Below, piece after piece: positions 4,558 through 41,467 of a DNA stretch of 42,979 nucleotides (positions within the stretch are counted from its first letter, which is position 1; the number at the start of each line of letters is the position of its first letter). The notes under the pieces are model-generated. The model was not told the DNA's origin. It ran no database searches and was given only the letters and a program-made list of their open reading frames with translations. This stretch comes from Gammaproteobacteria bacterium. GTDB lineage: Bacteria; Pseudomonadota; Gammaproteobacteria; Steroidobacterales; GCA-2729495. The stretch is taken from positions 1-42,979 of the forward strand of contig VGVH01000021.1 of NCBI GenBank assembly GCA_016874095.1, in the 5' to 3' direction. A program made the translations under genes and the position numbers.

Positions 4558-4561
<4 letters not shown>

Positions 4562-5649
4562 CTCTCGCCGGCGGCAGAATTCCCTGGGCTCGTCACCAGC
4601 GCGCGGCCCACCTGCAGCGCCTCGTCGGCCGTCGCGGCGAAGCCGTCTGCGCCGAGCTGCCGCCAGAGCCCGGGCTCGTCGTTGAAGCCGGAGCCGCCGA
4701 CGAGCACCCGCACCGTGCTGCCAGCATCGGCGCGCAGAATCTTGATGGTCTCTGCCACCCGCGCAAGGTGCACGGACAGCGACGCGCCGAGCAACAGCAG
4801 ATCCGCGTCGAAATAGGCCACCATGGATGGCAGGTCCTCGGCGGGGACATCGGCACCCAGGTAGATCGCCCGCCAGCCGTCGATCTGGAACAGGTCGGCG
4901 ACGGCGCGCAGGCCGATGTCATGCGCATTGCTGGCGACCGCGGCCACGACGGCGCACAGCCCGTTTGCCGGCGCCGCAGCAGCGGCATGGGCCAGCACCG
5001 CCATCGCGCGGTGTGTAGTGGCGGTCACGAGGTGTTCTTCGGCCACGGCCACGTCGTTCTGGTGCCAGAGCCGGCCGATCTCGCGCTGCGCGGGCAACAG
5101 GACTTCGAGATAGGCGCTGCGTACCGGCAGGCCAGATTCGACAGCGGACTGGATCAGACGAATCGCGCCAGAGGAGTCGCCTTCCAGCACCTGCTGCAGG
5201 TACTGCAGAGCGAGCCGGTCGCAATCCCGTGCCGGATCCAGTTCCGAACGATCCACCACCAGTTTGCCGCCCAGGCTGAGGATGGCGTGCTCCAGGCACT
5301 CGATGGCCGCTGCGCCAGCCGGTACCGGCATGTGTTGTCGCAGGACATCGCGCAACGCCTCGAGACTCAAACGGACGTCGCCAATATCGGCACCGCGGGC
5401 GCTGAAAGCCTTCGCAGTCCAGAGCACCCGGGTGGCAAACAGCTTCGGATGGCCGGTGGCCAGGGCGCTCGACAATTCGACCGCCCTGTGGACCAGGTGG
5501 CTCTTCCACACCCCCTGCGCATCGCCGGGGTAGCGGTCACGGAGCGATGGCTTCCGTTCGATCATCAGGCTTGCGGCAAAGCCCGCAAAACCCGCGGCGC
5601 CGCGTTCGATGATCTCCGCGGCAAAGGCGTCATTGGTGGAAACCGACAT
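4558..5649 (-). CDS. Cobalamin-binding protein with CarH/LitR-like photoreceptor signature, no DNA-binding domain
   Basis: A 363-residue protein in three parts. Residues about 15-110 form an all-helical region of unknown function (conserved look: GVWKSHL, LFATRVLW). Residues about 140-222 resemble the four-helix B12-binding cap, with Trp195-His196 and Glu205-His206. Residues about 228-355 form a Rossmann-type B12-binding domain with N-x-H-x-x-G (Asn241, His243, Gly246) and VLVGGSGF. In the CarH photoreceptor the matching Trp and Glu-His pack on adenosylcobalamin, the His next to Trp becomes a cobalt ligand after illumination, and the Rossmann His is the lower ligand; all are present here. There is no MerR helix-turn-helix, so any regulation must act through a partner. 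Start chosen at ATG 5649 (MSVSTND); 43 further upstream codons look non-coding. It is divergent from an ECF sigma gene 237 bp away. B12 binding is likely; light sensing is inferred. Confidence 0.85.
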
Positions 5650-5886
5650 GGGGTCCCAGTCTACACCGCCCCTATGGACGTAAGCCCAGCCTCGCCGGGA
5701 GAATCGACCTTTCCGCTTCAGCGCCATCTCAATCCATATCGACGGGTGGAGCCCTGCGGATTCAAGGGACGCCGGCAAGGCTGTGTCGATTTGCTCACCT
5801 GCGGTATGATCTGGGCCATATGGCTGGCGCCCGCAGTCTCAATCGCAGTGGCTCGATCCGACAGCACTGGGTGGGACGGAACGCAG
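5650..5886. promoter_or_regulatory. Divergent intergenic region between B12-binding protein and ECF sigma genes
   Basis: This 237-bp stretch separates the two divergent start codons and presumably holds both promoters. A good -10-like TATGAT lies at 5805-5810 on the plus strand, but no convincing -35 stands 16-18 bp before it. On the minus strand TAGACT (5658-5663) is only about 10 bp from the B12 gene start. I found no clear inverted repeat or ECF-type bipartite motif by eye. No gene is supported here, although the plus frame of the sigma gene is open throughout. Confidence 0.35.
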
Positions 5887-6465
5887 GTGCCTGAGCAACA
5901 GTCGATACTGGTACGGATTGCGGCGGGTGACCGCGCCGCCGTAGCCGAATGCATGAACGCCTATGGCGACCTCGTCTGGTCCCTGGCGAGGCGCTTTCTG
6001 CGCAATCCGACCGACGCCGAAGATGCCGTGCAGGACGTGTTCATCGACTTGTGGAACAGCGCCTCGCGCTATGACCCACAGATCGGCGGCGAGCTGGCAT
6101 TCGTGGCAACGGTCGCCCGCCGCCGCCTCATCGACCGGATCCGTCGGCGCCAGCGCCAGCCTCCGACCGACTCGCTCGACGAACAAATCGAGGAAATCGG
6201 CGATGTCACCGCGGCTGCCATTCCGCCGCTGGACGAGGATGCCGAAGTCGCGGTCATAGAGCGTGCGCTGGCCACGCTGCCTGCGGCACAGCAGGAAATT
6301 CTTGCCCTCGCCATCCACGAAGGTTACAGCCACAGCGAGATTGCCGAACGGCTGGGTCTGCCGCTAGGCACCGTCAAGACCAAGGTCAGGCGCGGGCTGA
6401 TCCATCTGCGGGAGACCCTGCAGATCAGCGCGCCGGGCGACGAGACGGGAACCCCGGATGCCTGA
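5887..6465 (+). CDS. ECF-family RNA polymerase sigma factor
   Basis: A 192-residue extracytoplasmic-function sigma factor that would redirect RNA polymerase to a small regulon. Region sigma2 spans about residues 22-92 (DLVWSLARRFLRNPTDAEDA, then VQDVFIDLW and ATVARRRLIDRIRRR). Region sigma4 spans about 122-178 with helix-turn-helix SHSEIAERLGLPLGTVKTKV. I chose the GTG at 5887 (VPEQQSIL) because it is preceded by a GGGACGGAA ribosome-binding stretch and gives the usual length; the long open frame upstream is antisense of other genes. Its last 8 bp overlap the next gene, which looks like its regulator. The divergent B12-binding protein suggests light- or cobalamin-linked control, as in the LitR-LitS and CarH/CarQ systems, but that is inference. 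The ECF subgroup is not assigned. Confidence 0.93.
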   Translation: MPEQQSILVRIAAGDRAAVAECMNAYGDLVWSLARRFLRNPTDAEDAVQDVFIDLWNSASRYDPQIGGELAFVATVARRRLIDRIRRRQRQPPTDSLDEQIEEIGDVTAAAIPPLDEDAEVAVIERALATLPAAQQEILALAIHEGYSHSEIAERLGLPLGTVKTKVRRGLIHLRETLQISAPGDETGTPDA

Positions 6466-6769
6466 CGCACGGACGACCGGTAACTACCGCCTCCTCAAGC
6501 TGCTGGCGGACGAGGCCGCAGGAGCGCTTGACCCATCGACAGCCGACGAATTCAGCCGACTGGTAAGTGCAGCCGGGAACGCGGTGGCGCGCGACGAGAT
6601 GATGCGGGTGTCCGCCCTGCTGCAGGCTGCGCTCCTGAAGCGCGAACTGGCCGCCCGGCACGGCCGGGAGTCGCCGGCCATGCCCGCGCGATTGCGCAGC
6701 GCAGTCCTGCGGCAGGCCGACACCTGGCTGGCGGCTGGAACGACAGGGCCGGTGAATCCAAAGACCTGA
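6458..6769 (+). CDS. Small anti-sigma-like protein, translationally coupled to the ECF sigma
   Basis: A 103-residue soluble protein whose ATG lies 8 bp inside the sigma gene, an overlap typical of sigma/anti-sigma pairs. The first part ([20 protein letters not shown]) resembles the N-terminal helices of anti-sigma factors, and [12 protein letters not shown] resembles the short linker helix that precedes a membrane segment in RskA-type proteins. Here the protein simply ends there: no transmembrane segment and no HxxxCxxC zinc site are visible. If it is the anti-sigma factor it would be cytosolic and lack its own sensory domain. Function is inferred from position and weak sequence pattern only; it could instead be a co-regulator. 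Confidence 0.7.
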
Positions 6770-6855
6770 CCGGGTACGAAATCTGCTACTGGAGGGTTCG
6801 CGGAAGCCCGTCCGCGGATACCACAAGCCCTGCAACCAGTGGAGATACAACGACA

Positions 6856-7593
6856 ATGAGCCCACCCTCAGTCGCCGCGCTTGCTGCGGCTCCGATCGAG
6901 TCCTCTGTCGCCACCATCAACGCGCTGCGCACGCCCGACCGGGGACTGCGCCCGGAGGCGATTGCGGTCCGGGATGCTCTCATCGCGCGCGGACTGGAGA
7001 CGCCGCTGCTGCCGGTCGACCTGACGGCAGCCGAGAAATGCGAACGCATTTCCGGGCACGTAGCCGAGATCATGCGGATTCTCGGCCTGGACCTTCGCGA
7101 CGACAGCCTGGCAGATACGCCGAATCGCGTCGCCCGGATGTACGTCGAGGAGATTTTTTCCGGTCTCGACTATCGTCATTTTCCGAAACTCACCGTGGTC
7201 GAGAACAAGATGCAGGTGGACGAGATGATTCGCGTCCGCAACATCAACCTGTCTTCGGTCTGCGAGCACCACTTGGTCACCATAGATGGCCGCGCCACGG
7301 TCGCCTACATACCTGGGACGAAAGTCATCGGCCTGTCGAAGATCAATCGCATCGTCGGCTTCTTTGCGCGGCGGCCGCAGATACAGGAGCGACTGACAGA
7401 ACAGGTCCTGCTCGCCCTGCAGACCCTGCTCGAGGTGGAGGACGTCGCGGTCAGCATCACGGCCGTCCATTACTGCGTGAAGGCGCGCGGGATCATGGAT
7501 ACCAACAGCGAGACCACCACGACAGCACTCGGCGGGGTGTTCAAGTCGCGACCCGAGACCCGCAAGGAGTTCTTCGCAGGGGCCTGCGCCTGA
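6856..7593 (+). CDS. folE: GTP cyclohydrolase I, E. coli-type paralog
   Basis: Converts GTP to 7,8-dihydroneopterin triphosphate, the first step of folate and pterin synthesis. The 245-residue protein is very close to the E. coli enzyme throughout: [60 protein letters not shown] and HYCVKARGI. Zinc ligands Cys136, His139 and Cys207 are present. It has about 26 extra N-terminal residues. A GGAGA ribosome-binding site precedes the ATG. It follows the ECF sigma and anti-sigma-like genes by 86 bp on the same strand and may be their target or partner. A second, distinct GTP cyclohydrolase I gene occurs at 40874-41467, so this copy may serve a conditional pterin need, such as a photolyase or cryptochrome chromophore; that role is inference. 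Confidence 0.95.
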
Positions 7594-40873: not shown

Positions 40874-41467
40874 TCAGGGCCGCGTCGCCGCGAGGAATTC
40901 CTCGCGGATGCGCGCATCGTCCTGGAAGGCGCCCAGCATTTGCGTCGTGATCATCCGCACGTTCGAGCGGTGCACGCCGCGGGTGGTCATGCACTGGTGC
41001 TGCGCCTCGACGATGACGGCGACTCCACGCGGTTCGAGTACATCGTTCAGGCAGCCGGCGATCTCCGCCGTCAGGCGTTCCTGGACCTGCAGTCGCCGTG
41101 TATAGGCTTCCACCACGCGCACCAGCTTGCTGATGCCGGCCAGGCGCCGGTTGGGCAGGTAGGCGAGATGGATGCGGCCGATGATCGGTGCCATGTGATG
41201 TTCGCAATGCGACTCGAAGTCGATGTTGCGCAAGGTCACGACCCGATCGTAGGCACCGACCTGCTGGAAGGAGTCGCCCAGCACTGCGTAGGGATCGACT
41301 GCGTAGCCGGAGAACCAGTCCTCGAAGGAACTGGCGACGCGCGCGGGCGTCTTGCGCAGGCCGGCTCGCCCCGGATCGTCACCGGTCCAGGCAAGCAGGA
41401 CCCGGATCGCCTCCTCCGCCTGTGCGCGGCTTGGACGTCGGGCAACTGGTTTCTTCGCCATCGGCAC
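40874..41467 (-). CDS. folE: GTP cyclohydrolase I, second paralog
   Basis: A 197-residue enzyme for the first step of folate and pterin synthesis. Its sequence is of the Bacillus/animal type: GLRKTPARVASSFEDWFSGY, SHCEHHMAPIIGRIHLAYLP, RRLAGISKLVRVVEAYTRRL and QHQCMTTRGV. Zinc ligands Cys88, His91 and Cys159 are present. It differs clearly from the E. coli-type copy at 6856-7593. It sits between mobA and maoC in a minus-strand run and may be the housekeeping copy. The ATG 6 bp later (MAKKP) is an equally possible start. Confidence 0.95.
   Translation of the reverse strand: MPMAKKPVARRPSRAQAEEAIRVLLAWTGDDPGRAGLRKTPARVASSFEDWFSGYAVDPYAVLGDSFQQVGAYDRVVTLRNIDFESHCEHHMAPIIGRIHLAYLPNRRLAGISKLVRVVEAYTRRLQVQERLTAEIAGCLNDVLEPRGVAVIVEAQHQCMTTRGVHRSNVRMITTQMLGAFQDDARIREEFLAATRP

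Follow-up and report, generated by a model that had tools for sequence, protein, structure and literature searches.

The closest described counterparts of the protein considered here are the photocobilins SasPcob (8J2W/8J2X) and AbPcob (8J2Y), which, in the available portion of their description, likewise combine a CarH-like B12 domain with a phycobiliprotein-like globin, lack a DNA-binding domain and share the W-EH-H residues; SasPcob is reported not to undergo the large rearrangement that accompanies the bis-His light state of CarH, and the partners given there for stand-alone photocobilins are network predictions only (PMC10979010). Since the same text already mentions photocobilins carrying the B12 domain at the N-terminus as well as a group carrying it at the C-terminus (PMC10979010), the new photoreceptor design suggested in a preliminary description of this locus has to be given up. 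CarH/LitR proteins share with our protein the cobalamin domain fold and the adenosyl-pocket residues, including the His beside the Trp, but carry a MerR HTH where ours has a globin-like N-terminus. AerR is an HTH-free B12 photoreceptor that works through another regulator, namely the repressor CrtJ/PpsR and not a sigma factor, and it is not known to have a globin domain; the AerR structure 7te2 stands at rank 40 among the structure matches of our model, with a similar fold. Among sigma factor systems, the ChrR anti-sigma factor of RpoE (ECF11) carries a cupin, where the system described below has a B12 protein instead, and SigK is paired with the membrane-anchored RskA_C type of anti-sigma factor.

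The window, that is, the whole 42,979-nucleotide stretch of gammaproteobacterial contig VGVH01000021.1 that was analyzed, encodes a protein, here termed the sensor, which is probably a vitamin-B12 light sensor joined to a globin domain akin to the phycobiliproteins, light-harvesting proteins of cyanobacteria, and which is predicted to bind AdoCbl and respond to light (Table 1). The CarH-like cobalamin core noted in the preliminary description is borne out by two Pfam domains above cut-off and by alignment of residues 149-345 with T. thermophilus CarH, which places W195-H196 over Trp-His, E205-H206 over Glu-His and H243 over a conserved His (presumably W131/H132, E141/H142 and the lower ligand H177 of CarH). 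These residues lie exactly where they had been placed in the 363-aa frame, with the W-9x-EH spacing and the context N241-A-H243-D-I-G. Across 63 sequences (window included, with further loci on already included contigs and loci with only the B12 half, e.g., L146, L149 and L151-L155, left out), W195, E205 and H243 are conserved in 63/63 and H206 in 62/63, and the agreement with CarH positions is thus not due to chance. Residue 196 is His in 48/63, as in CarH and in the sensor, and Gln in 11/63, as in SasPcob. The relatives' loci came from an alignment-based scan, a single-protein contig scan having found none, and their start codons in the alignments were chosen by rule. The published light signature GxxW, EH, GxxH, GxxxP, as given in the accessible part of its source (PMC11796333), is present as G192xxW, EH and G265xxxP, with S240 in place of the Gly of GxxH, a position that is Gly in 51/63 sequences; the NCBIfam CarH model scores 67 bits, far short of its cut-off of 400. 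The AF2 model of the whole sensor (mean pLDDT 94.3, pTM 0.88) matches CarH-type cobalamin domains and photocobilins in structure comparison, in keeping with the original reading of the core, and the absence of a DNA-binding domain also holds, with no HTH family match in Pfam at E up to 1.

Table 1. Features of the sensor-sigma locus, in window coordinates
Feature	Position	Strand	Basis
Globin-B12 protein (sensor), 363 aa from ATG, candidate photoreceptor	4558..5649	-	ORF and AF2 model
Phycobiliprotein-like globin (photoglobin), residues 5-126	5272..5637	-	sequence profile and Foldseek
W48-x-x-H51, putative bilin-site positions	5497..5508	-	placement inferred by alignment
B12-binding_2 four-helix cap, residues 149-219	4993..5205	-	PF02607, 9e-16, above cut-off
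W195-H196, adenosyl pocket	5062..5067	-	motif position, 63-sequence conservation, CarH alignment
E205-H206 motif	5032..5037	-	motif position, 63-sequence conservation, CarH alignment
B12-binding Rossmann domain, residues 233-345	4615..4953	-	PF02310, 3e-17, above cut-off
H243, predicted lower cobalt ligand	4921..4923	-	motif position, conservation, CarH alignment
Candidate ECF-type promoter of sensor gene, TGAATCCG-N15-CGAT	5739..5764	-	one mismatch to family motif
SigK-like ECF sigma factor, divergent from sensor gene	5887..6465	+	PF04542, PF08281; GTG start inferred from relatives
Short soluble anti-sigma-like protein, 103 aa	6458..6769	+	matches N-terminal part of relatives' membrane anti-sigma-like proteins
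ECF-type promoter motif TGAATCC-N17-CGAA upstream of folE	6753..6780	+	exact; 1 match in window vs 0.06 expected
folE, GTP cyclohydrolase I, likely target	6856..7593	+	PF01227, 1.3e-60

The N-terminal region had been called helical and unassignable; the model agrees with the former, but the region can be assigned. The best match of the sensor among PDB sequences in phmmer is SasPcob (8j2w, 2e-28), with a second stretch, weak alone (0.01), that lays sensor residues 52-106 over 8j2w 265-319 in the C-terminal globin of SasPcob. The N-terminal region by itself reaches 9e-4, and a profile of 32 such sequences recovers 8j2x/8j2w (4.4e-7), AbPcob 8j2y (0.004) and allophycocyanin beta (0.02), so that the profile search leads to the biliverdin-binding domain of a solved photocobilin; residues 5-144 searched alone have no Pfam match at E up to 10. 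With the separately modeled domain (mean pLDDT 93), Foldseek finds allophycocyanins closest (TMq 0.76, best E 4e-3), along with smURFP (TMt 0.79-0.81), photocobilin 8j2x in 21st place (TMq 0.67) and heme globins such as DosC (TMq 0.65-0.67) and hemoglobin (0.54-0.58), all at E-values above 0.001. The fold therefore identifies a globin and the sequence profile the photocobilin type; judged by profile and model together, the sensor is a globin-first relative of the photocobilins. A degenerate MerR domain in this region was rejected in view of the missing HTH matches and the globin-type fold.

What distinguishes the sensor from the solved photocobilins, apart from its globin-first order and its genetic tie to an ECF sigma factor, is the putative bilin site, with His51 (as in AbPcob) and W48. 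The numbering of the 8j2w sequence is that of its paper minus six (W55=Trp61, E65=Glu71, H102=His108, W290=Trp296), and on this basis SasPcob Trp296 aligns with sensor W77 while Asp270 falls on H51, one residue outside the aligned stretch; the profile alignment spans this position and places the AbPcob His on H51. Asp270 is described in the available text as the key biliverdin contact of SasPcob, and AbPcob, with His in its place, as a poor biliverdin binder (PMC10979010). The bilin Cys of phycobiliproteins, which the accessible text of PMC10151467 locates in a C-x-R-D motif, would by alignment fall on sensor W48. Trp occupies position 48 in 53 of the 63 sequences and position 77 in 62, and position 51 holds His in 33 and Asp in nine. 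Of these nine Asp51 proteins only L135 also has Trp48, the other eight lacking it, and the nine loci show no ECF match at E < 1e-8. The PF01126 heme oxygenase family has no match in the window genome and none in 57 of the 60 genomes searched (three matches, two above cut-off). It is present in 6/29 genomes of the residue-51 comparison (L143 left out), including that of L135, but in none of the seven searched genomes whose Asp51 protein lacks Trp48, and was therefore dropped as non-discriminating for bilin use. In the spirochaete loci L140, L141 and L142, the globin-B12 gene, whose product has Asp51 but lacks Trp48, is directly preceded by a further reading frame with a B12 domain, which lies on the opposite strand.

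The divergent neighbor of the sensor gene, taken for an ECF sigma factor in the preliminary description, is a genuine sigma gene with regions 2 and 4 (PF04542 and PF08281), whose nearest solved relative is SigK (best PDB match 4nqw, 3.5e-20), to which it is closer than to RpoE of the RpoE-ChrR pair. The importance given to this neighbor is likewise upheld, by co-occurrence, by adjacency in four phyla and by a shared promoter. Across 59 relatives, scored at E <= 1e-30 for the sensor (27 genomes, counting partial matches in G027 and G033 as positive) and E <= 1e-35 for the sigma factor (28 genomes), 25 have both, two the sensor only, three the sigma factor only and 29 neither (Fisher 3e-11; restricted to the 49 genomes with a completeness of 90% or more, 1e-10; significances inflated by shared descent as the test treats related genomes as independent). 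The pattern also splits genera: the nine genomes of the window's genus comprise seven with neither gene, one with both and one, 73% complete, with the sigma factor only; genus g6 has one genome with both and three with neither, and genus g9 three with both and two with neither.

Inspection of the genomic neighborhoods shows the two genes no more than 1 kb apart in 14 of the 63 loci (window included, some genomes contributing more than one). These include loci of Planctomycetota (L115, L123, L124, L125, L127), Acidobacteriota (L110), Krumholzibacteriota (L118) and Gammaproteobacteria (Pseudomonadota), as assigned by record title; since most of the sequences are metagenome-assembled, individual assignments may be wrong. 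Eight of these 14 pairs are co-oriented, their BLAST matches being separated by only 27-56 bp, and in L124, L125 and L127 the sensor gene comes immediately after the sigma gene, in the place expected for the anti-sigma gene. On the tree of the 63 sensor proteins, adjacency requires at least four gains or losses across well-supported branches and is thus not the accident of one clade. The genes are non-adjacent in 49/63 loci; eight of the 63 have less than 1.6 kb of sequence on one side. A simple codon-usage caller, trained on window genes including the sigma gene, misses that gene (5887-6465, +), which could signify recent acquisition or simply a weak caller.

Upstream regions of the sensor, sigma and neighboring genes (141 in total) yield the dyad GAATC-N17-CGAA in 17 cases, against a best dyad count of at most eight in five random region sets from the same loci. 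The exact form GAATC-N16..18-CGAA precedes 16/37 sensor genes, 2/2 folE genes and 4/6 SnoaL-like genes, with a background of 0.007 per region across loci, and we infer that the sigma factor reads a TGAATCC-N15..17-CGAA motif. The 1.2 kb preceding the sigma gene contain the exact motif in the same orientation in 14 of 35 loci and lack it in 21. In 9/35 sigma loci a co-oriented fasciclin gene stands 128-256 bp upstream of the sigma gene, and in 8/9 it is itself preceded by the motif; in the remaining six of the 14 motif-bearing loci the motif is 54-352 bp before the sigma match, and within 160 bp of the sigma gene the exact motif is found in 1/34. The window's own sigma gene has no motif within one mismatch in its upstream gap and no exact motif within 1.2 kb. 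Exact motifs are also absent upstream of the SDRa (0/7), SDRb (0/14), CFA (0/10), DUF1365 (0/11), AO (0/11) and DUF1295 (0/7) classes, which may in part be internal operon genes. Allowing one mismatch, the counts become 5/11 for AO, 5/6 for snoaL and 5/34 for sigma genes, at a background of 0.057 per region (180-bp stretch), the level at which the window's sensor promoter stands. Of the control upstream regions, 10/440 carry the exact motif, six of the ten belonging to fasciclin genes that head a sigma operon; two others belong to DUF4397 proteins near a sigma gene (L056 10660-12051, -; L085 8547-10010, +), which are candidates for further sigma targets. Genome-wide, the exact motif occurs in 59/60 genomes, including ones without the sigma factor, and because this count is noisy only the upstream-region test was used.

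The genes neighboring this system resemble known singlet-oxygen and light regulons. The R. sphaeroides RpoE regulon, in the available part of its description, includes CfaS, two CFA-type genes, an SDR, fasciclin, folE2 and photolyase (PMC7074977), and Pseudomonas light-inducible clusters controlled by LitR comprise, in the accessible text, photolyase, SDR, FAD oxidoreductase, UfaM and folE (PMC9758184). The neighbor set of our system (SDR, CFA synthase, FAD oxidase, folE and fasciclin) overlaps strongly with these RpoE and LitR light regulons, CFA synthase, SDR, fasciclin and GTP cyclohydrolase being the targets in common with RpoE-ChrR. Elsewhere in the window genome, a cluster on L190 encodes an NAD(P)H-binding oxidoreductase, CFA synthase, DUF1365, an FAD amine oxidase and SnoaL-like proteins, together with a second, weakly CFA-like gene and a DUF1295 gene, and the divergent amine-oxidase/SnoaL gap holds two one-mismatch motifs; a fasciclin gene on L188 has an exact motif 88 bp upstream. 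A true short-chain dehydrogenase gene adjoins the sensor gene in several relatives (e.g., L043), and across the 59 relatives DUF1365 and the sensor occur together in 21, the sensor only in six, DUF1365 only in seven and neither in 25. An alpha/beta hydrolase gene of the window genome (L189 1575-2624, +), with an exact motif 66 bp upstream, is a further candidate target. The window contains a second GTP cyclohydrolase I frame (40889-41413, -; PF01227 5.6e-66), 38% identical to folE; as this copy is far away, the sigma-adjacent folE could be an inducible extra one.

The gene directly after the sigma gene encodes, in 15 of 30 assessable loci, a protein of 250-302 aa with one strong hydrophobic stretch (L052, L053, L080, L082 and L083, where contigs end, were left out of this scoring). 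Two full-length relatives were scanned, of which L085 matches RskA_C (1.8e-10) and L071 has no Pfam match, so that the anti-sigma factor is of the RskA type, not ChrR, in at least one relative. The window's 103-aa copy differs from SigK/RskA in lacking the membrane-anchored RskA_C part: it has no strong hydrophobic stretch, no Pfam match and only a chance-level unrelated NCBIfam match (0.19) at E up to 1, a range in which the ChrR zinc/cupin anti-sigma domain is also absent. It does match the N-terminal part of long forms, or short ones, in 11 loci (L070-L079 and L081) at 34-42% identity (E 5e-7 to 1e-10). Among 13 assessable sensor-adjacent loci, five have such a stub only (window, L051, L056, L057, L118), six no recognized anti-sigma gene (L049, L054, L115, L124, L125, L127) and two the long form (L110, L123); the 17 other loci comprise 13 long, three short (L074, L075, L077) and one with none (L084). 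The long form is thus found in 2/13 adjacent versus 13/17 non-adjacent loci (Fisher 0.0025), a contrast between related, non-independent loci under a length and hydrophobicity rule that could miss a diverged gene. In several genomes an unlinked sensor coexists with a complete membrane anti-sigma-like protein, and the sensor therefore need not act on the anti-sigma factor everywhere.

We posit, with somewhat more confidence than doubt, that a photocobilin-type, globin-first B12 photoreceptor provides a dedicated ECF sigma factor with its sensory arm. By analogy with SasPcob and CarH, the sensor would bind adenosylcobalamin in the dark as a CarH-like head-to-tail dimer, and light would break the Co-C bond and cause the dimer to fall apart into monomers. 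Loss of the dimer would tip the balance between sigma and anti-sigma, in this window the soluble protein of 103 aa, in favor of free sigma. The latter would then transcribe genes bearing the TGAATCC-N15..17-CGAA motif: the sensor gene, folE and fasciclin, in a fair share of the relatives also the sigma operon itself, and perhaps the furan-fatty-acid-type cluster. The globin-B12 protein would thereby supply the sensing performed elsewhere by the membrane half of the anti-sigma factor. Both a physical contact of the sensor with sigma or anti-sigma and the sign of its effect, with light turning sigma on, are predictions of this scheme; in loci where no anti-sigma gene was found, we favor contact with the sigma factor over contact with the stub. 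More tentatively, and on present evidence rather against the balance, the sensor may have taken over the anti-sigma factor's sensing role altogether and itself be the anti-sigma factor in three Planctomycetota loci where no anti-sigma gene was found, keeping sigma directly bound in the dark and releasing it on illumination, with a phycobiliprotein fold devoid of bilin as the protein-binding part.

The main challenge to control by the sensor is that the globin-B12 protein could merely be a member of the sigma regulon, for instance another regulator that responds to light or a protector of corrinoids, with no hold over sigma. Sigma-type promoters at 16/37 sensor genes, the absence of linkage in 49/63 loci and the full-length, possibly self-sensing membrane anti-sigma-like protein kept by 13/17 unlinked sigma loci all fit such a role, but it sits poorly with adjacency or operon formation in four phyla, with an anti-sigma factor that is undetected or shortened in 11/13 of these loci and with the sensor gene's occupation of the anti-sigma place in L124, L125 and L127, and we consider it unlikely. 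A little less likely again is a sensor that gates sigma in response to adenosylcobalamin supply or redox/oxygen state rather than light. The window genome indeed lacks photolyase matches (PF00875 and PF03441), and the available text on an R. rubrum PpaA/AerR-like cobalamin-domain protein reports it as redox-responsive (PMC10734443); against this, the adenosyl-pocket Trp and Glu-His shared with CarH and photocobilins are near-invariant, the gene set, as far as the regulon sources are available, is that of light and singlet-oxygen regulons, and photolyase is commoner in relatives with the sensor (19/27) than in those without (9/32).

Two further readings concern the chemistry of the sensor. A corrinoid methyl carrier of the MtaC/MtgC type with an extra domain would account for NCBIfam matches to MtgC and pyl_corrinoid (1e-17 to 1e-11), which fall far below the score cut-offs, but the CarH-like W-9x-EH signature, the identity of the closest solved structures (photocobilins and CarH-type domains) and the absence of corrinoid methyltransferases among the neighbors that were identified already make it very improbable. 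Compatible with the sensory-arm model, and about as unlikely as simple regulon membership, is a photocobilin with two chromophores, which would bind a bilin besides the cobalamin and respond to red light. Its globin fold is of the bilin-binding type, and AbPcob, with His at the same position, still binds some biliverdin according to the accessible text (PMC10979010). Nevertheless, a second chromophore is doubtful because His51 replaces the bilin-binding Asp, Trp48 replaces the Cys and the genome has no PF01126 match, the last being a weak point given the same absence (0/7) in Asp51 genomes.

The first interpretation of the sensor is thus partly supported, and what appears to be new is the output, a B12 photoreceptor that would control an ECF sigma factor. 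No report of the globin-B12/ECF sigma pairing came up in the passages covered of the open publications surveyed, and an earlier mention is possible; within this scope, the pairing suggests an unreported bacterial route to switch on light-damage protection. With one conserved ECF sigma partner, a likely promoter and likely targets named here, the output becomes testable in E. coli. If correct, the model would place a direct route from light to a sigma factor beside CarH-type repressors and the ChrR singlet-oxygen route, offer a compact green-light sigma switch for optogenetics and imply that phycobiliprotein-type globins may persist bilin-free as signaling domains. The globin-B12 family also has other genomic associations: in L053, L059, L060 and L061, the last three of which have no sigma match, a separate subfamily adjoins genes for RND efflux pumps (AcrB-like, named by sequence inspection), with a membrane fusion protein gene in three of these four loci.
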